A stretch of DNA of 33,305 nt from a virus: IMG/VR virus record IMGVR_UViG_3300020051_000054, positions 1-33,305 of that record; one strand, written 5' to 3'. The position numbers and the translations under genes are program-made. Positions 18,924-33,305 of this stretch are shown piece by piece. The stretch's first letter is position 1; each line of letters begins with the position of its first letter. A model generated the notes under the pieces. The model was not told the origin of the DNA, did no database searches, and worked only from the letters and a program-made list of their open reading frames with translations.

Positions 18924-19319
18924 ATGCTTGAAGCACTTATAGGACCAGTCACAGGTATCCTAGATAAGTTTATACCTGATGCCGATCAAAGAGCAAAGCT
19001 TGCCCATGAGATTGCAACAATGTCGGAACGTCATGCCCAAGAACAATTAATGGCGCAGCTTGAAATTAATAAAGCTGAGGCAGCTAGTACAAGTATTTTT
19101 AAAGGTGGCTGGAGACCAGCAGTTGGTTGGGTATGTGCATCAGCCTTTGCATATCACTTTGTTCTACAGCCCATCCTGCTCTTTGTGGTAGCCTTAACAG
19201 GTACAGAGCTACCTGTACTACCCGAGTTTGATATGGGGACCCTGCTGCCTGTTCTAGGAGGTATGCTTGGTATTGGAACTTTACGTACATATGAAAAGAA
19301 AGCAGGGCTAACTAAATGA
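18924..19319 (+). CDS. holin of the 3-TM GTA type
   Basis: A 131-residue protein: amphipathic start (LEALIGPVTGILDKFIPDAD), charged helix (QRAKLAHEIATMSERHAQEQ), then FKGGWRPAVGWVCASAFAYH, FVLQPILLFVVALTGTELPV and LLPVLGGMLGIGTLRTYEKK. GWRP..GW, three hydrophobic segments and the final G..R..EK.AG are the marks of the GTA_holin_3TM family (holins of gene transfer agents and many phages of alphaproteobacteria and others). It lies directly before and overlaps the endolysin gene, the classical holin position. Confidence 0.9.
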   Translation: MLEALIGPVTGILDKFIPDADQRAKLAHEIATMSERHAQEQLMAQLEINKAEAASTSIFKGGWRPAVGWVCASAFAYHFVLQPILLFVVALTGTELPVLPEFDMGTLLPVLGGMLGIGTLRTYEKKAGLTK

Positions 19320-19756
19320 ATATAGAGACCCTTAGAGAAGAACTTAAGATTGACGAGGGCTGTAAGTATGAGATCTACTTGGATCATCTTGGCCTCCCTA
19401 CTTTTGGTATTGGTCACCTTATTCTCAATAGCGATCCTGAGTATGGACTACCAGTTGGAACACCAGTCTCAGAAGATAGAGTCAATGAGTGCTTCGCTAG
19501 TGATGTCGAAACAGTGTTATCGGAGTGCACACTCTTATACCCCAACTTTAGCATTCTGCCTGAGCAAGTCCAATTGATTATTGCTAATATGATGTTTAAT
19601 ATGGGAAGGTCTAGGCTAAGTAAGTTTAAAGGTATGAAGGCTGCTGTAGATGCTGGTGATTGGCATAGGGCTGCTGTCGAAATGGTTGATAGCCGTTGGT
19701 ATCAGCAAGTAACTAACCGAGCTGATCGCCTTGTAAAAAGAATGCGAATGGTGTAG
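19316..19756 (+). CDS. endolysin, T4-type lysozyme (GH24)
   Basis: A 146-residue muramidase that cuts the glycan strands of peptidoglycan. It resembles T4 gpe along its length: LREELKIDEGCKYEIYLDHL, GLPTFGIGHLI, then ANMMFNMGRSRLSKFKGMKA and ALV-type helices, and VDSRWYQQVTNRADRLVKRM. The catalytic set is present with T4 spacing (Glu14, Asp23, Thr29; E-x8-D-x5-T). No signal peptide or SAR segment is seen, so release should depend on the holin just upstream, with which it overlaps by four bases. It is slightly shorter than T4 lysozyme (164). Confidence 0.95.
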   Translation: MNIETLREELKIDEGCKYEIYLDHLGLPTFGIGHLILNSDPEYGLPVGTPVSEDRVNECFASDVETVLSECTLLYPNFSILPEQVQLIIANMMFNMGRSRLSKFKGMKAAVDAGDWHRAAVEMVDSRWYQQVTNRADRLVKRMRMV

Positions 19757-19817: not shown

Positions 19818-21566
19818 ATGCACAATACTGAATATACTGGACCAACTACAACCATTGCTGAAGAAATTGATAAGATGAAATACCGTCAGTCAGATGAAAC
19901 ATTTGATGACAAGATTAAAAGAATTGCTAAGACCCTATGTGATAATGAAGAACATCGATATAGCCTAGAAGATATTCTAGGGAATATGAGGTTTCTCCCC
20001 GCTGGTAGAGTACAGTCTGCTATTGGATCTCGTCGTATTACAACAGCGTATAACTGTTTTGTATCTGGTGAGATTGAAGATAGCATGGCTTCTATTATGG
20101 ATAGAGCAGCTGAAGCCGCTGAGACTATGCGCCGAGGTGGTGGTATTGGTTACGACTTTAGTAAGATTCGCCCACGTGGTGCAAAGATTAAATCACTAGA
20201 CTCACAGTCTTCCGGACCTATTTCTTTTATGGGTATCTTTGATGCTGTCTGTCAAACAATTGCATCATCAGGCCATCGACGTGGCGCACAGATGGGAGTA
20301 CTACGAGTAGACCATCCAGACATTGAAGAGTTTATTCAAGCTAAGCGTAATAGCGATAAGCTAACCGGGTTTAATATTAGTGTAGGCATTACTGATGCGT
20401 TTATGGAGGCGCTAACTAATGATAGCGACGATTCTTTCACACTGTGCTTCGATGGCATCGACTACAAAACGATATCCGCAAAAGCGTTGTGGGATGAAAT
20501 CATGTCGTCGACTTGGGATTGGGCAGAACCTGGTGTGCTGTTTGTTGACCGCATTACGGAGATGAACAACCTTCACTACTGTGAAGAGATTGCTGCTACT
20601 AACCCATGTGGCGAGCAGCCACTACCCGCTTATGGTGCATGCCTACTTGGTTCATTTAATCTTACTAAGTATGTTGAAGCTGACGGCTTTAACTTTACAC
20701 AATTTAAAAAGGATATTCCAGAAGTTGTTAGAGCACAGGACAATATTATTGACCGAACCATCTACCCACTTAAACAACAATCAGATGAAGCAAAGAACAA
20801 GCGCCGTATGGGACTTGGCATCACTGGTTTGGCTAATGCCGGAGAACTGCTTGGAATGCCGTATGCCTCACCAGAATTTCTTGTGTGGGCAGAAAAAGTA
20901 TTCGCGTGCTTGCGTGACAATTGCTACAGAGCATCTGCGCGACTAGCAGCAGAGAAAGGCGCATTCCCACTTTATCGTGAAGCTTACTTACAATCTAATT
21001 TTATTCGTACACTTCCAGCTTCTGTTAAAAAGGAGATCAGAGAACATGGTATCCGAAATAGTCACCTTACTTCTATTGCCCCTACTGGCACTATATCTAT
21101 TGTGGCCGACAACATCTCAGGTGGTATTGAACCTGTATTTTCGCATTACTACGATCGTACCATTCAAACATTTGATGGGCCGATTATTGAAAGAGTAGAA
21201 GACTATGCTTATGCACGTGGTGTAAAAGGCCGCAGTGCAAATGATATTTCGGTGCAGGAGCACTTAGCTGTATTACTATTAGCACAGCATTATATTGATT
21301 CTGCATGTTCAAAAACTTGTAACGTCGGAGATGATGTCTCTTATGAAGACTTTAAAAAGGTCTATGTTGATGCCTGGAAGGGCGGGGCGAAGGGATGCAC
21401 TACGTTCCGGATGTCAGGGAAACGGTTTGGAATCCTTAATACCATTGAAGAAACCGTGGAAGAAGAAGCGCAGGTACCTAGCGAAGCTGCGGAAGTGGTA
21501 CAAGAAACGGGAACGGTTGAGGCTTGCTTTATCGACCCGCTCACAGGTCAAAAAGAGTGTTCTTAA
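19818..21566 (+). CDS. nrdJ: class II (adenosylcobalamin-dependent) ribonucleotide reductase
   Basis: A 582-residue enzyme that reduces ribonucleotides to deoxyribonucleotides using a B12-generated thiyl radical. Visible: RFLPAGRVQSAIG, AYNCFVSGEIEDSM, RRGGGIGYDFSKIRPRGAKI, SSGHRRGAQMGVLRVDHPDI, the active-site loop ATNPCGEQPLPAYGACLLGS and the phosphate loop SIAPTGTISIVADNISGGIE, then KGCTTFRMSGKRFGIL. Cys80 and Cys275 fit the redox pair, Cys264 the radical cysteine, Asn262 and Glu266 the other catalytic residues. C-terminal cysteines in ACFIDPLTGQKECS could shuttle electrons. No ATP-cone, intein or small-subunit gene is present. It sits between lysis and tail genes, unusual for a replication enzyme. 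Confidence 0.95.
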   Translation: MHNTEYTGPTTTIAEEIDKMKYRQSDETFDDKIKRIAKTLCDNEEHRYSLEDILGNMRFLPAGRVQSAIGSRRITTAYNCFVSGEIEDSMASIMDRAAEAAETMRRGGGIGYDFSKIRPRGAKIKSLDSQSSGPISFMGIFDAVCQTIASSGHRRGAQMGVLRVDHPDIEEFIQAKRNSDKLTGFNISVGITDAFMEALTNDSDDSFTLCFDGIDYKTISAKALWDEIMSSTWDWAEPGVLFVDRITEMNNLHYCEEIAATNPCGEQPLPAYGACLLGSFNLTKYVEADGFNFTQFKKDIPEVVRAQDNIIDRTIYPLKQQSDEAKNKRRMGLGITGLANAGELLGMPYASPEFLVWAEKVFACLRDNCYRASARLAAEKGAFPLYREAYLQSNFIRTLPASVKKEIREHGIRNSHLTSIAPTGTISIVADNISGGIEPVFSHYYDRTIQTFDGPIIERVEDYAYARGVKGRSANDISVQEHLAVLLLAQHYIDSACSKTCNVGDDVSYEDFKKVYVDAWKGGAKGCTTFRMSGKRFGILNTIEETVEEEAQVPSEAAEVVQETGTVEACFIDPLTGQKECS

Positions 21567-27529: not shown

Positions 27530-30500
27530 ATGAGACTCAAAAAGTTTGAACAAAAGGACCGCTATGGAAATATGTTCTCTATTGAATTTGATACGTCTAT
27601 TCCAAAGATTGAAAGTATTCCTGAGCATCCTGGAGAACCGCGTGGTACTGATACCGTACCTGCTTGGTTAACACCAGGGGAGTTTGTAATGAATGCGGAA
27701 GCTGTCCGTATGTTTGAACCAGAGATCGAAGATATGAACGACAAAGGTCGTGAAGTTCAAATGCAGCAGGGTGGTACAATACCGGAGTATGCTGCTGCCG
27801 GTCAGAAGATTACAAAGCGTAAAATGCCTAACGGTAAAATGGGGCTTTGGCAAGGTAATACTTATCTAGGTCTGCATGAAGAAGGCCCTTCTTTTCTTGG
27901 GGATATTTCTGAAGCGGCTAAAGAAGGCTGGGAAGAATGGAATCCCTTTAAAAGTAATGGCGGTAGTGTACCCCCTGTTTATGCCGCGGCTGGTGGCAGC
28001 AGTAATTTTCTTGCTGATATCTTAAAGCGCTTAGAAGGAGTAGCTAGTGAAGCATACCTAGACTCTGCTGGTAAGGCAACCATCGGCGCTGGTAGTACAC
28101 GTGGTGTACAAATAGGCGACACAGCTTCTGATGAGCAAATTAACTCTAGACTTGCAGAAGACATGGCTATTGTTGATCAAGATTATGGACAGCTTGTGAC
28201 CGCAGATCTAAACCCTAATCAAGAAGCAGCAGTTAAATCTTTGTTGTTTAACATTGGTGGACCGCAGTTTGCTAATAGTAAAGCACGTGCTGCGCTTAAT
28301 GCAGGTGACTTTGATAGCTTTAAGAAAGAAGCTGCAGAGTTCCGCAAGGTTGGAGATAAGGTTATCCCTGGTCTTGAAAACCGTAGAGCACAAGAACTTG
28401 CTTTGTTTGATTCACCCGTTGGCGAAGACCCTTGGGGTATTAATAGACGACAAGTAGCGACTCGTGATGATCGTGTAGCTAAGCTTGTTGCTGCGGGTCA
28501 ACCTATTGACTTGGCTATGCAAGCAGCAATGCTTGGTCAAAATGCAGAGACTGAGGGTGAGATTGTAACACCTCCTCCAATTGATAGAGGGCCTCCTTCG
28601 GCTATGGCTATGACACCAGCTGAAGATATCCTTGCACTAGAACAGCAGATGAGGGCAGCTCAACAAGCGGGTACCTTTGAAGCAACATCAGATGTTGGAG
28701 ATCCATTCCCGCCTGAGCCACCAGTTCCTGGACCAGATGCAGAAATGCTTGCAGCACAGAAGGCAACACTCGAGCAAGGTATTTATGATCCTGATGGAAA
28801 CATGGAAGCTATTCAAGCTGGTATTGACCAAGCTCAAATCTTAGAAGATCAACGACGTATGCAGCAAGGTCAGGTTCCTGCAATTGAGGCGGCACCTCCT
28901 GCCAGCTATGGTGATGGTGACTTTGGTCAAGACGATATTAGCTCTGATGCTGGTAGTATTCCTGAAGATACACGCAATTGGCTTAGAAAAATCGGTGATG
29001 CTGGTGGGCTTTCTACTATTGTTAAAGATAAGTATGATCAGTTTGAAGCTGATGCTGAAAAGAAAGCAAAGCAAAAAGGTGTGATGACTTCGGATGATGC
29101 AGGTATGACACCAGCTGAAACATTGCCACCTGCTGAAATACCCAAGCCAGAGACAGGTACGTATGGTGTCCATAATACTATCATTAGACCGGACGCTGAG
29201 GGCAAAGATCGTACTTATAAGTGGGATGCTAAAAGAGAAGCATACATTGATGAAGCTGGGTTAGAGTATACTCGTGGTCCTGGTGAATTAATTAGTGGAC
29301 TCTTTACCGAGAAGCCACCAGTTGATGATCAGCCTGATCAAGGTGATACTCAAATCGGTACGCTTAATGGTAACCCTGTATATATGGGTAAAGATGGTCA
29401 GCCTTATGTCATGGAAGATCTTGGTAAGCTAGGTCTCGCTGCCGGTACTACAAAGATGAACGTGCAGCCTTGGCAAACTGATGATATTAAACTGCTTCCT
29501 AAAGCAGATCGTACAGTAGCTGGGCCTAAAACACCTGGTCCTAAAGATGGATTAATCGATCTACCCGGTACAGATACCGCACCACCACCACCAGCAGTAG
29601 CAACACCAGCAGCAACACCAGCAGCAACACCAGCAAACAACATTGCAGCAACTGCTAATGATAAAGACGGAACACCAGCAAAACCATCTGCAACACAAGT
29701 AGCTGCGGAAGTTAAGAAGGCTGATGATGGTTCCGCAGCAGGTACTAAGCCAGGTGAGGCTGAAGCAGCCGTTAAAAAGGCAGGTAGCGATGGTACGGAT
29801 AAAGTTGAGAAAGCTGAAGGCTGGTTAGCAGAAACCTTTGGTGGTTTGTTTGATGCCCAAGAACTTAAGAGAATGGCAATACTTTATGCTGGCTCAAGGC
29901 TACTTGGTAACTCACATGCTGGCTCACTTAATTGGGCAGCTGAAGGTTACTTAGATCGTGTTGGTGCACATGAAGAAAACGTACAGAAGTTAATTGAGAA
30001 AGGTGAGTATACTCCTGCATCAATTCAAAACTTTAAGAAGACTAAAGACTATAGCGTATTGATTAAAACCGGTACGCCTATCTCACCTACTGGGACTAAA
30101 GAAACTTGGTATACGCCTGAAGGAAAGCGGATACAAGCGGAGAAGTATAAGACAGGTAAAGATAGTTATGTCTGGTCTGCTGATGGTGGAAGAACTGCAA
30201 TACCTTCTGCCTGGCATCAGGATGCATCGCGTGTTAAGAACACCGACGAGTATAACGATCGGGTTATTAAAGAGTCAAACTATCTTGCAGAAAGATTAAC
30301 TGAAATTGACGAAAGCTCAGGTAATAAAATTGTAAGCGGCTCGGTTAAAGGCGGTGATAGAAAGACTGCGTATGTAACCGGCTTACGTCCAAAAGATGCT
30401 GCATCTCAAGTAGCACGGTGGGCTGCTGCAAACGGTATCGACGTTGGAAGTGCCGAGGGTTATGCTCGGCAGGCTTGGGAAATGGCAGTGGCCGATGCCT

Positions 30501-30904
30501 TAGCTGATCCAGATCGGAAAACAAAACCATCTGATTTGCGTCCTTACTTAAACCAGTTAAAGATCCGTCAAGACACAGGTATCAATGAACTCTTTGATAT
30601 CACTGCAGAAGATGGGAAGATAAGGAAGATGGATTCGGAAAAGATTGATGAAGTCAGTCGTAATTATCTTGCCCGTAAAGGGTTATCTGGTGGAGTGAGT
30701 GAGGGTGATCTTGTTAAAGACGGGGCAACTGGCTTTACTACTAGAAGAAATCGCAATGAAGTAAATAACTTTTGGACTGAAGCCAGCTCGCGTTGGACTA
30801 AGAAGGTTGCTGCAGATCCAAGTGTTGTAGATGAGTGGGCAGGCAAAGCTCTTCCGGGTGAGACCCCGTTCTTTGCTTGGGCTAAAGCTAACGTAATGAA
30901 ATAG
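27530..30904 (+). CDS. large internal virion protein with GH24 lysozyme domain
   Basis: A 1124-residue protein, probably ejected to open peptidoglycan for DNA entry. Residues 40-60 (TDTVPAWLTPGEFVMNAEAV) carry the D..PA.LTPGEFV motif often found in tape-measure proteins; GG..P.YAAAG occurs twice (82-91 and 144-155). A GH24 lysozyme domain follows (about 160-295): ILKRLEGVASEAYLDSAGKA and TIGAGST, with catalytic set Glu169, Asp178, Thr184 at E-x8-D-x5-T spacing, and ENRRAQEL near its end. The middle is acidic and disordered; about 685-715 is a proline/alanine linker. The C-terminal third is helical and structured (YAGSRLLGNSHAGSLNWAAE). Function as in T7 gp16 is by analogy. Confidence 0.85.
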   Translation: MRLKKFEQKDRYGNMFSIEFDTSIPKIESIPEHPGEPRGTDTVPAWLTPGEFVMNAEAVRMFEPEIEDMNDKGREVQMQQGGTIPEYAAAGQKITKRKMPNGKMGLWQGNTYLGLHEEGPSFLGDISEAAKEGWEEWNPFKSNGGSVPPVYAAAGGSSNFLADILKRLEGVASEAYLDSAGKATIGAGSTRGVQIGDTASDEQINSRLAEDMAIVDQDYGQLVTADLNPNQEAAVKSLLFNIGGPQFANSKARAALNAGDFDSFKKEAAEFRKVGDKVIPGLENRRAQELALFDSPVGEDPWGINRRQVATRDDRVAKLVAAGQPIDLAMQAAMLGQNAETEGEIVTPPPIDRGPPSAMAMTPAEDILALEQQMRAAQQAGTFEATSDVGDPFPPEPPVPGPDAEMLAAQKATLEQGIYDPDGNMEAIQAGIDQAQILEDQRRMQQGQVPAIEAAPPASYGDGDFGQDDISSDAGSIPEDTRNWLRKIGDAGGLSTIVKDKYDQFEADAEKKAKQKGVMTSDDAGMTPAETLPPAEIPKPETGTYGVHNTIIRPDAEGKDRTYKWDAKREAYIDEAGLEYTRGPGELISGLFTEKPPVDDQPDQGDTQIGTLNGNPVYMGKDGQPYVMEDLGKLGLAAGTTKMNVQPWQTDDIKLLPKADRTVAGPKTPGPKDGLIDLPGTDTAPPPPAVATPAATPAATPANNIAATANDKDGTPAKPSATQVAAEVKKADDGSAAGTKPGEAEAAVKKAGSDGTDKVEKAEGWLAETFGGLFDAQELKRMAILYAGSRLLGNSHAGSLNWAAEGYLDRVGAHEENVQKLIEKGEYTPASIQNFKKTKDYSVLIKTGTPISPTGTKETWYTPEGKRIQAEKYKTGKDSYVWSADGGRTAIPSAWHQDASRVKNTDEYNDRVIKESNYLAERLTEIDESSGNKIVSGSVKGGDRKTAYVTGLRPKDAASQVARWAAANGIDVGSAEGYARQAWEMAVADALADPDRKTKPSDLRPYLNQLKIRQDTGINELFDITAEDGKIRKMDSEKIDEVSRNYLARKGLSGGVSEGDLVKDGATGFTTRRNRNEVNNFWTEASSRWTKKVAADPSVVDEWAGKALPGETPFFAWAKANVMK
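29600..29635 (+). repeat. three exact 12-base direct repeats coding for ATPA
   Basis: GCAACACCAGCA three times in a row inside the large ejection protein gene, giving an Ala-Thr-Pro-Ala linker. Flanking CCA and CAGCAGTAG copies suggest slippage growth. Confidence 0.85.
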
Positions 30905-30913
30905 GAGATAGTA

Positions 30914-33305
30914 ATGGGTGAGTTTGATGATCTATTTACGCAGTCGTATGATCTTGCCGGAAGCGACGGGCATACCTTTGCTGATGGTGATACGCTACTA
31001 AATAGAGAAGGCCAGCTACTCCGTATTGAAGGGTTAGAGGCGGCTGAGATTGCTAAGAAGACAGGGCTTGGTATTCAACCAGGTACTGCAGGTGGTGCAG
31101 CCGCCACTACCACTATCATGAACCTAGCTAACCAGCATGGATTTAAAAACGTTATCTATCTGACGAATCCAGATGGTAGTCCAAAGATGGATGCCACTGG
31201 TACTCGTCAGATGGTACGGCTTCAAGATGATCAGGGCAGAGACTTTACAGTTGAAGCCACTAAAACTGGCATTAACCAGGTTGGTAAGTACAGTTCACAA
31301 AATGAAGTGTTAGCTGCCAGCTTGGCTGAAGCTGAAGACAAACTAGACCAACCACTAACTGATTGGGAAAAGGGTACACTATCAATTCAGCAGGCAACTA
31401 ATGCTGAGATGATGAGAGAGCAAGAGTTTAAAGACACAGCTCTTAATGAGCGTATGCTTGCTAGGTTAAATGCAGAACAGCAGCCTGGTGAATCAGCTGC
31501 TGCTTATGCTGCTCGTCGTGAAGAAGCTGCAAGGTATGTAGATACTAATGTGCAAGTCCGACATCTTGATCGCAACCTACAGAACCAAGCACTTAATCCT
31601 TTATCGGAAAGTTTCGATGTAGGCTTAACAGGTTTAGCTGAATCTATGTATGGCGTTGCGGAGATGGCTGGTGAGACAACCGGATGGGATTGGGCGCAGC
31701 AGATTGGTGAGCAAGGTATTGCCCGTCAGCGTGCGTACCTACAGCAAATGCCTCAGCTTAAACTATCTGCACTTAAACCGACTGTTGATAAAGATGGTAA
31801 GGTAATTGGTAATGAGTGGGACATTGATGGTATCGGAGAATTCTTTGAGTACTTAGGTAACAATGCTGCGGTCTCACTACCATATATGGCAGTATCTATG
31901 GGCGGTGCATTGCTAGCTCCAGCAACTGGTGGTACTTCATTAGCTGCTGCAACTGGTTTAGGTGTAGCTCGTTATGCTGGTGCCTCTATGTTAGCACCTG
32001 TTGCTATGTATACCGGTCAGACTTGGAATGAAATGGAAGGTGAGAAGAGTGCATCACTTGCAATTGCAGCGGGTGTAACTCAAGCCGTACTAGATCAGTT
32101 AGGTATTGCCTCGATTGTTAGAGGCGGTAGCATCCTAAAGAAGAGTACATTAGAAGCTGCAACTACAGCGTTTCTTAATAAGCAAGCACAAGCTGGAGTG
32201 ACTATTAGCCGTGAAGCTGGTCGTAAAGTTGTAGAGAATCTAACACGTAAAGAGATTGCAAAGTTTGCAGGGGCTGCAGCTCAAACTGCTAAGTCTCAAT
32301 TAGCCGCTCGTAATCTTCTTAGAGCTGCGTCTACCCAAGCTGGTAAAGGTTTGCTAGGCGAATCTGCAACAGAAACTTTGCAGGACCTAACAGGCTACAT
32401 GGCAGCGGTTGCAGGTAGTGATAAACACTTTGATGCAGTTGAACTACAAAACAGATTACTTAATGCTGCTATTGCTGGTGGTACTTTAGGTGCGGGCTTC
32501 TCTATTCCTGGTGTTGCATATGATGCAGGCGCTTGGGCAGACGTAGCAGTACGCCAAGCACCGGCTGAAGCAAAGCGGAAGTCTCGTGCAGGTAAGCGTG
32601 TTGCCGACGAAGAACGGTTACACGGTCAAGTCAGATCTATTCAACAAGTTAATCAGCAAACTGCAGAGGATATTGAACGGCGTAACAGGCGTGGTGGAAG
32701 TGCTTCAAACTTTTCAGATAAGGTTGCAGCTGCTAACGTCTCGGCTTTGAATAGAGATATCTTTACTCGGGCTAAAGATGCTTGGGCTTCAATTCCTGGA
32801 TTGTGGCAAGGCTCAACTCGGTTTATCTTTAAGGATGACTTACAAGATAAGTATAAAGCATTAGCTGAGTTAGCTGATACATTTCAAGGTAACCTACAAA
32901 AAGTTTTAAGTGGTTCTGGATTTGAAAACCGTAAGAAGCATTTGCTTACACAGTACCGTAACATGGTGGATTCACCAGCAGCCTTTGCACAGAGAGCGGG
33001 GTTTACCACACTAAATCAAGGAGCCATCTCAGATATCACTACTAAGTTTGGTAGATGGCTAGGTAACCAAAGAGGTACACCTGACTTTGATCAGATGCCT
33101 GATGAGTTACTTCAACATCGTAGCTGGTTAAGCTTATGGTATTCACAAGTTAATAACCTTAGTAATAAACTTTATAATGACCAGGTTAAAGCAACTACCG
33201 ATAACAATAAGCAATCAAACCTCGGGTTTGTACAAAACTATTTGTTTAAGTACAAGTCATTTAATAAAGCAGCTATTGAAAAAGATGAGAATGGTTTTAT
33301 CCAAA
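30914..33305 (+). CDS. giant internal virion protein with SNase-like N-terminus (partial, runs off the end)
   Basis: The frame is open from ATG 30914 (AGGAG just upstream) to the window end, 797 residues with no stop, so the gene is 3'-truncated by the window. Residues 20-125 resemble a staphylococcal nuclease-like (TNase) domain: DGHTFADGDTLLNREGQLLR and IEGLEAAEIAKKTG match the DGDT and R.....E..E parts of that fold. Then come charged helices (EQQPGESAAAYAARREEAAR), a region of several hydrophobic segments (about 315-440, e.g. YMAVSMGGALLAPATGG) and more helical sequence. Size, order and membrane-active segments fit a DNA-ejection protein like T7 gp16. Nuclease activity is not established. 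Confidence 0.8.
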   Translation, partial: MGEFDDLFTQSYDLAGSDGHTFADGDTLLNREGQLLRIEGLEAAEIAKKTGLGIQPGTAGGAAATTTIMNLANQHGFKNVIYLTNPDGSPKMDATGTRQMVRLQDDQGRDFTVEATKTGINQVGKYSSQNEVLAASLAEAEDKLDQPLTDWEKGTLSIQQATNAEMMREQEFKDTALNERMLARLNAEQQPGESAAAYAARREEAARYVDTNVQVRHLDRNLQNQALNPLSESFDVGLTGLAESMYGVAEMAGETTGWDWAQQIGEQGIARQRAYLQQMPQLKLSALKPTVDKDGKVIGNEWDIDGIGEFFEYLGNNAAVSLPYMAVSMGGALLAPATGGTSLAAATGLGVARYAGASMLAPVAMYTGQTWNEMEGEKSASLAIAAGVTQAVLDQLGIASIVRGGSILKKSTLEAATTAFLNKQAQAGVTISREAGRKVVENLTRKEIAKFAGAAAQTAKSQLAARNLLRAASTQAGKGLLGESATETLQDLTGYMAAVAGSDKHFDAVELQNRLLNAAIAGGTLGAGFSIPGVAYDAGAWADVAVRQAPAEAKRKSRAGKRVADEERLHGQVRSIQQVNQQTAEDIERRNRRGGSASNFSDKVAAANVSALNRDIFTRAKDAWASIPGLWQGSTRFIFKDDLQDKYKALAELADTFQGNLQKVLSGSGFENRKKHLLTQYRNMVDSPAAFAQRAGFTTLNQGAISDITTKFGRWLGNQRGTPDFDQMPDELLQHRSWLSLWYSQVNNLSNKLYNDQVKATTDNNKQSNLGFVQNYLFKYKSFNKAAIEKDENGFIQ

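Follow-up and report, generated by a model that had tools for sequence, protein, structure and literature searches.

Giant proteins of phages and conjugative elements which are injected and combine nuclease, lysozyme and N4-type RNA polymerase domains, the polyvalent proteins, are known in their broad outline (Iyer et al., 2017, PMC5512222). In the corresponding survey ParB was the only DNase type found, other DNase domains neither displaced nor accompanied it, and the staphylococcal nuclease (SNase) is unmentioned in the main text (PMC5512222). The phages N4 and T7 eject three ejectosome proteins (PMC12633501). Here, we analyzed the open reading frame (ORF) at the 3' end of a viral contig of 33,305 nucleotides (IMG/VR virus record IMGVR_UViG_3300020051_000054, positions 1 to 33,305), in the following called the window. 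A first-pass annotation of this DNA had placed a degenerate SNase-like domain at the head of a giant ejection protein encoded there. Profile comparison, fold prediction and conservation analysis now identify this head almost certainly as a divergent, true member of the SNase superfamily.

The SNase-like head

The gene and its head domain of approximately 110 residues were located as follows.

30914..33304, + strand: predicted SNase-headed giant virion (ejection) protein, 5' 797 codons; ATG at 30914, open at the contig end
30959..31288, + strand: SNase-like head domain, residues ~16-125, from the profile against PDB and the AlphaFold2 model against SNase

The visible product comprises 797 amino acids. 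Full-length relatives have 1067-2050 amino acids, and a 97%-identical relative is visible over at least 1165. Scans of viral contigs for relatives yielded 22 loci and later 65 loci. Comparing a profile of 18 heads of these relatives (A1) with the PDB sequences, SNase/thermonuclease was found in all 60 matches listed, with a best E value of 2e-4. Seven of the 18 members matched Pfam SNase (PF00565) individually (best E 6e-5). Statistically significant similarity to PF00565 was consequently obtained through the profile and the relatives, with the window sequence alone staying below the threshold. Nine head columns were invariant in the 18 relatives (D24, D26, T27, R37, E45, D93, R98, G108 and G119 of the window), and in the profile alignment they fell on D19, D21, T22, R35, E43, D83, R87, G96 and G107 of SNase.

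The fold comparison, which had been set beforehand as a check, gave the same answer. The AlphaFold2 model of the window head matched SNase structures with a Foldseek probability of 1.00 (E 2.6e-4) and a VIA Z score of 10.4 (root-mean-square deviation 3.1, 113 residues aligned), so that the predicted model shows the OB-type SNase fold of PF00565. In a full-length model of the relative L004 the head reached a predicted local distance difference test (pLDDT) value of ~85 and was the sole beta-rich domain. Searching the PDB with this full-length model by Foldseek, the only meaningful match was that of the head to Tudor-SN (probability 0.99). Profile, fold and invariant columns thus agree on an SNase-like head; of the domain span of residues 20-125 in the first-pass annotation the domain itself proved real, with limits nearer to 16-125.

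Several other candidates were discarded. The matches of the window head to Sigma70_r4_2, PhiCb5 coat and LolB in single-sequence searches were sub-threshold noise and rejected as chance, and whole-length Foldseek matches of the full-length model to transporters and karyopherins in the PDB (probability <0.15) were ignored as helical noise. A contaminating host gene fragment as origin of the head was rejected, since every head-bearing relative has it in frame at its N terminus. PHROG 18798, a family of unknown function of 124 amino acids, matched the window head (E 5e-5) and 10 of the 18 relatives. It probably represents an SNase-like family, for which re-annotation could be considered.

Conservation of the active site

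For the conservation analysis 55 distinct heads with a mean pairwise identity of 31% were used. Exactly seven columns were found invariant, the equivalents of D19, D21, T22, R35, E43, R87 and G96. The catalytic residues R35, E43 and R87 and the metal ligand D21 (R37, E45, R98 and D26 in the window) were kept in every head. The chance that D21, R35, E43 and R87 all occur among seven random columns of 115 is ~5e-6 (hypergeometric). The corresponding positions in the window are:

30983..30994, + strand: DGDT motif, residues 24-27, SNase D19-T22, with D26 as metal ligand D21; D24, D26 and T27 invariant in 55/55 heads
31022..31024, + strand: R37, SNase R35; 55/55 heads
31037..31039, + strand: E42, aligned with the metal ligand D40 of SNase; residue differs within the family (D 30, N 15, E 7, S 3)
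31046..31048, + strand: E45, SNase E43, general base position; 55/55 heads
31190..31207, + strand: D93...R98, SNase D83...R87; R98 in 55/55 heads, preceded by an Asp at a distance of 3-8 residues in 54/55

All residues named in the first-pass annotation (D24-G25-D26-T27, R37, E42, E45, D93, G96 and R98) are at the positions given there, and the conservation of R37, E45 and R98 in relatives, which it had named as a check, was found throughout. Its term "degenerate", judged from the sequences, fits the second metal ligand D40 only; elsewhere the domain is divergent with the catalytic set intact. The D40 position was occupied by Asp in 30, Asn in 15, Glu in 7 and Ser in 3 of the 55 heads. In a tree computed from the protein body, with the head left out, no fewer than six changes were counted at this position. 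D40 is typical of classical active SNases and is not needed for membership in the superfamily. Its loss therefore weakens a claim of classical Ca2+ chemistry and leaves the homology claim unaffected. The head is probably catalytically active.

Occurrence of the architecture among phages

The profile, built without either phage, detected the head of gp34 of the Roseobacter phage CRP-7 (E 1.6e-17) and that of pA_gene0066 of the Aeromonas phage phiA008 (E 3.4e-9). Both proteins are annotated as hypothetical, and the phiA008 head alone is above the curated Pfam cut-off for SNase (29.9 bits versus 21). CRP-7 is a 58.1-kb podovirus and has been described as founding a new marine group (PMC6918029). 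All 65 loci found via body patterns and motifs carry the head, and it was always N-terminal among head-bearing relatives. No SNase head was present in the sampled body homologues of KPP25/PaP3-type Pseudomonas and Vibrio podoviruses. The searched genomes of the KPP25, PaP3 and Vibrio podoviruses gave no Pfam SNase elsewhere, in a search of limited sensitivity which also misses the divergent head of CRP-7.

The window protein itself was a poor starting point. By tblastn against isolated phages it gave no match, and the isolates were reached only through relatives. Scanning with the window head alone, only two near-identical contigs were found. A further alignment (A3) was too diverse to serve for a scan, and the phiA008 protein as query retrieved no relative in viral contigs. 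The same phage cassette was also observed in L099 (CALGTL010000115.1), binned as a metagenome-assembled genome of an uncultured Dehalococcoidia. Apparently a viral contig has been sorted into this bin, and it is thus no evidence for the host.

Helical body and probable ejection cassette

Behind the head the protein continues into a body which is almost wholly helical in the full-length model of L004 and which carries a signature invariant in the 18 relatives.

32024..32047, + strand: WNEMEGEK signature of the helical body, residues 371-378, after a hydrophobic stretch; invariant in 18 relatives

The body corresponds to PHROG 6958, "virion structural protein" (E 1e-11 to 1e-24 in relatives, 1.9e-20 in the 97%-identical relative L001). 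In BFVD it matched the KPP25 structural protein, an internal virion protein from the Xylella phage Cota and several proteins annotated with a "large polyvalent protein associated domain"; full-length TM-scores were low, so that these matches support the class and not the detailed fold. The phiA008 body is homologous to a PaP3 constituent protein. Homology to proteins of known virions was thus found (PHROG 6958, KPP25 and, for the phiA008 body, PaP3), and the window protein is very probably an ejected virion protein. The giant ejection protein of the first-pass annotation is borne out by homology, predicted fold and gene context; injection itself we infer.

The contig is a partial podovirus genome with portal, scaffold, major capsid protein, tail and tail-fibre genes, followed by a single-ORF ribonucleotide reductase, a tail-tip-like protein, a lysozyme-bearing giant and then the SNase-headed ORF. 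This late-gene order agrees with CRP-7. Searching for defence systems with PADLOC, nothing relevant was found. The upstream giant of the same cassette was annotated as follows.

27530..30904, + strand: predicted giant virion protein with phage lysozyme domain (Pfam Phage_lysozyme, E 2.2e-27, residues 166-289)
28025..28396, + strand: lysozyme domain in this upstream giant, from Pfam

In the relatives examined a giant ORF lies directly upstream of the SNase-headed gene. Its hydrolase belongs to Phage_lysozyme in the window and L008, to SLT in L013, L015, L020 and L088, to Phage_lysozyme2 in L044, to GH108 in L063 and to a pesticin-like family in CRP-7; among those checked, the upstream giants of L003 and L026 gave no hydrolase match. 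The upstream peptidoglycan hydrolase is thus exchanged among at least five families, with the adjoining SNase head constant. The upstream giant of L023 was also part of this comparison.

A third giant follows downstream in nearly all relatives checked. That of L037 (10927-14415) matched the phage RNA polymerase PHROG 414 (E 7e-8), and that of L013 (10195-13404) the virion RNA polymerase PHROG 2206 (E 3e-6). The alignment of the downstream giants contains an R-x3-K-x3-MT-x2-YG and an H/Y-D-A element, which we read as the putative motifs B and C of single-subunit polymerases. Searching the PDB with the third giant, no sequence match was obtained. By these matches and motifs it appears to be a single-subunit RNA polymerase. 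L023:9610-13320 is one of further giants after an SNase-headed gene with an apparent polymerase. In CRP-7, gp33 is annotated as hypothetical, and a separate T7-like polymerase (gp30) is encoded; this phage may possess two RNA polymerases, one of the virion and one outside it. The consecutive wall-cutting, SNase-headed and polymerase-like proteins resemble a T7/N4-type ejectosome cassette, and the SNase-headed gene has its late-gene position in this cassette next to a peptidoglycan hydrolase.

Further observations were made on the same contig. The ribonucleotide reductase of the window (19818-21566) is one ORF of 582 amino acids. In CRP-7 (MK613349, 35552-38170) it is annotated in two pieces, gp44 and gp46, with the small ORF gp45 between them, which suggests interruption by an intervening element. 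A second small lysozyme-like ORF of 146 amino acids (19316-19756), just after a holin-like ORF, is probably the lysis endolysin.

Proposed function and alternative explanations

With somewhat better than even confidence we favor a virion-borne, metal-dependent, non-specific nuclease delivered at entry as the head of a giant ejection protein in a marine podovirus of the CRP-7 type. The SNase-headed protein would be carried inside the virion and released on infection together with the upstream hydrolase giant and the downstream RNA-polymerase-like giant. Its helical body would help to form or line a trans-envelope channel. The head would act as a metal-dependent, non-specific nuclease at the envelope or in the cytoplasm, before phage gene expression, and nucleic acid would be cut in the first minutes of infection. 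Host DNA and/or RNA is the most plausible target, and competing incoming DNA an alternative one. For an attack of the head on host nucleic acid at entry we see almost an even chance.

SNase homology, fold, conservation of the catalytic residues, N-terminal position and cassette order were computed. Several points weigh against the proposed function. We infer virion packaging, injection, catalytic activity and target. By itself the window head matched no SNase model of Pfam, NCBIfam or PDB in single-sequence searches, and its AlphaFold2 model had a mean pLDDT of 67.6, i.e., moderate confidence. At the D40 metal-ligand position the window has Glu42, and in the body tree it belongs to a clade of 10 rows with Glu or Ser there; replacement of D40 in SNase is expected to weaken or alter metal binding. 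Moreover, the activity of a nuclease packed next to the phage genome has to be restrained.

Some of these points are shared by an explanation which we consider unlikely, namely that the SNase fold is a nucleic-acid-binding pseudo-nuclease that grips the leading genome end or guides DNA through the channel. Some Tudor-SN repeats are a precedent for such a pseudo-nuclease, and the head of the full-length model also matches Tudor-SN. Of the 55 heads, 25 have lost the D40 ligand, as has the whole clade of the window, and a non-catalytic head would spare the packaged genome. Against it, R35, E43, R87 and D21 are unchanged in the 55 heads despite ~70% divergence elsewhere. Strict retention of R35, E43 and R87 argues against a fold that merely grips DNA, and holding exactly the catalytic set is not expected of a mere binding fold. 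A nuclease working on phage DNA at assembly or entry, by end processing, nicking or trimming in the virion, would suit an enzyme travelling next to the genome; it is very unlikely, with KPP25, PaP3 and Vibrio phages having the body but lacking the head, and with no Pfam SNase in those of their genomes that were searched, and with SNase, by the known biochemistry of the family non-specific, being unsuited to defined processing. That the SNase resemblance is coincidental, or that the head is another OB-type barrel, has a probability close to nil: negative single-sequence searches with the window head speak for it, and it is already contradicted by the profile, fold and conservation tests, which all gave SNase and nothing else.

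Distinctly unlikely in our view, an active nuclease might guard the infected cell by degrading DNA of superinfecting phages or plasmids, or extracellular DNA, and leave the host chromosome alone. For the ParB-type DNases of polyvalent proteins the same alternatives have been suggested (PMC5512222), and incoming DNA passes through the periplasm, in which the ejection channels are situated (PMC12633501). Neither an export signal nor a feature for periplasmic retention was identified.

Returning to a nuclease delivered at entry, the most far-reaching version is tentative and in our opinion rather doubtful: an injected SNase whose metal site is re-tuned at D40 would degrade host DNA/RNA within the first minutes, the packaged DNA being protected by metal exclusion or compartment. 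If true, this would be the first SNase-type injected nuclease, and the nucleotides set free would supply the ribonucleotide reductase which the phage itself encodes in its late region. Little is known so far about the ways in which lytic podoviruses disarm their host ahead of phage gene expression, and a pre-loaded nuclease, common to a broad marine podovirus group including the cultured CRP-7, is a candidate for an immediate attack on host DNA/RNA. It raises the question how a packaged nuclease spares the accompanying genome. The isolates CRP-7 and phiA008 allow tests in culture.

Comparison with known systems

The head shares with the SNase superfamily PF00565 the fold, the DGDT, R-x4-D/E-x2-E and D-x3/4-R motifs, the G96 position and nearly always the G107 position. 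It differs in its place at the N terminus of a virion protein of >1000 residues instead of a secreted or stand-alone enzyme, in the replacement of D40 in roughly half of the family by Glu (window), Asn or Ser, and in the divergence of most members, which is too high for single-sequence detection. The podoviral virion structural proteins of the KPP25/PaP3/VPp1 type (PHROG 6958) have a homologous body, annotated as structural or constituent, and lack the SNase head in those sampled.

The cassette resembles T7 gp14/15/16 and N4 gp50/51/52, which are likewise encoded by consecutive late genes and are virion proteins expelled before the DNA. As in N4, where it is gp50, one protein appears to carry an RNA polymerase, and T7 gp16 carries a peptidoglycan hydrolase, as the upstream giant does. 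In contrast to these ejection proteins, with which no sequence similarity was found, three giants are present instead of one or two. To our knowledge, no SNase domain is known in T7/N4 ejection proteins.

An SNase domain fronting a giant ejection protein appears to be undescribed. Among open-licence papers, the only ones covered and hence weak evidence of absence, none was found linking SNase/thermonuclease to phage ejection or internal virion proteins. The non-specific nuclease GBSV1-NSN is also phage-encoded, is discussed together with SNase and is reported to degrade RNA and DNA; it is a stand-alone protein, which is not described there as part of an ejection protein (PMC2390534). The first-pass annotation, which knew of no described example, was right for the SNase version only, since injected polyvalent proteins with other nuclease folds have been described (PMC5512222). 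Like these, the SNase-headed protein is a giant, predicted to be packaged and injected, with structural matches to polyvalent-domain proteins. Its effector domain is fused into a giant whose gene stands with the late virion genes. It is the sole effector recognized in this protein, the rest being helical with low TM-score matches to proteins annotated with polyvalent-associated domains. Unlike in the polyvalent proteins (PMC5512222), the effector is SNase, and hydrolase, nuclease and polymerase are distributed over three consecutive proteins. The SNase head is thus an exception to the ParB-only statement of the survey and adds a nuclease fold which the survey does not list.
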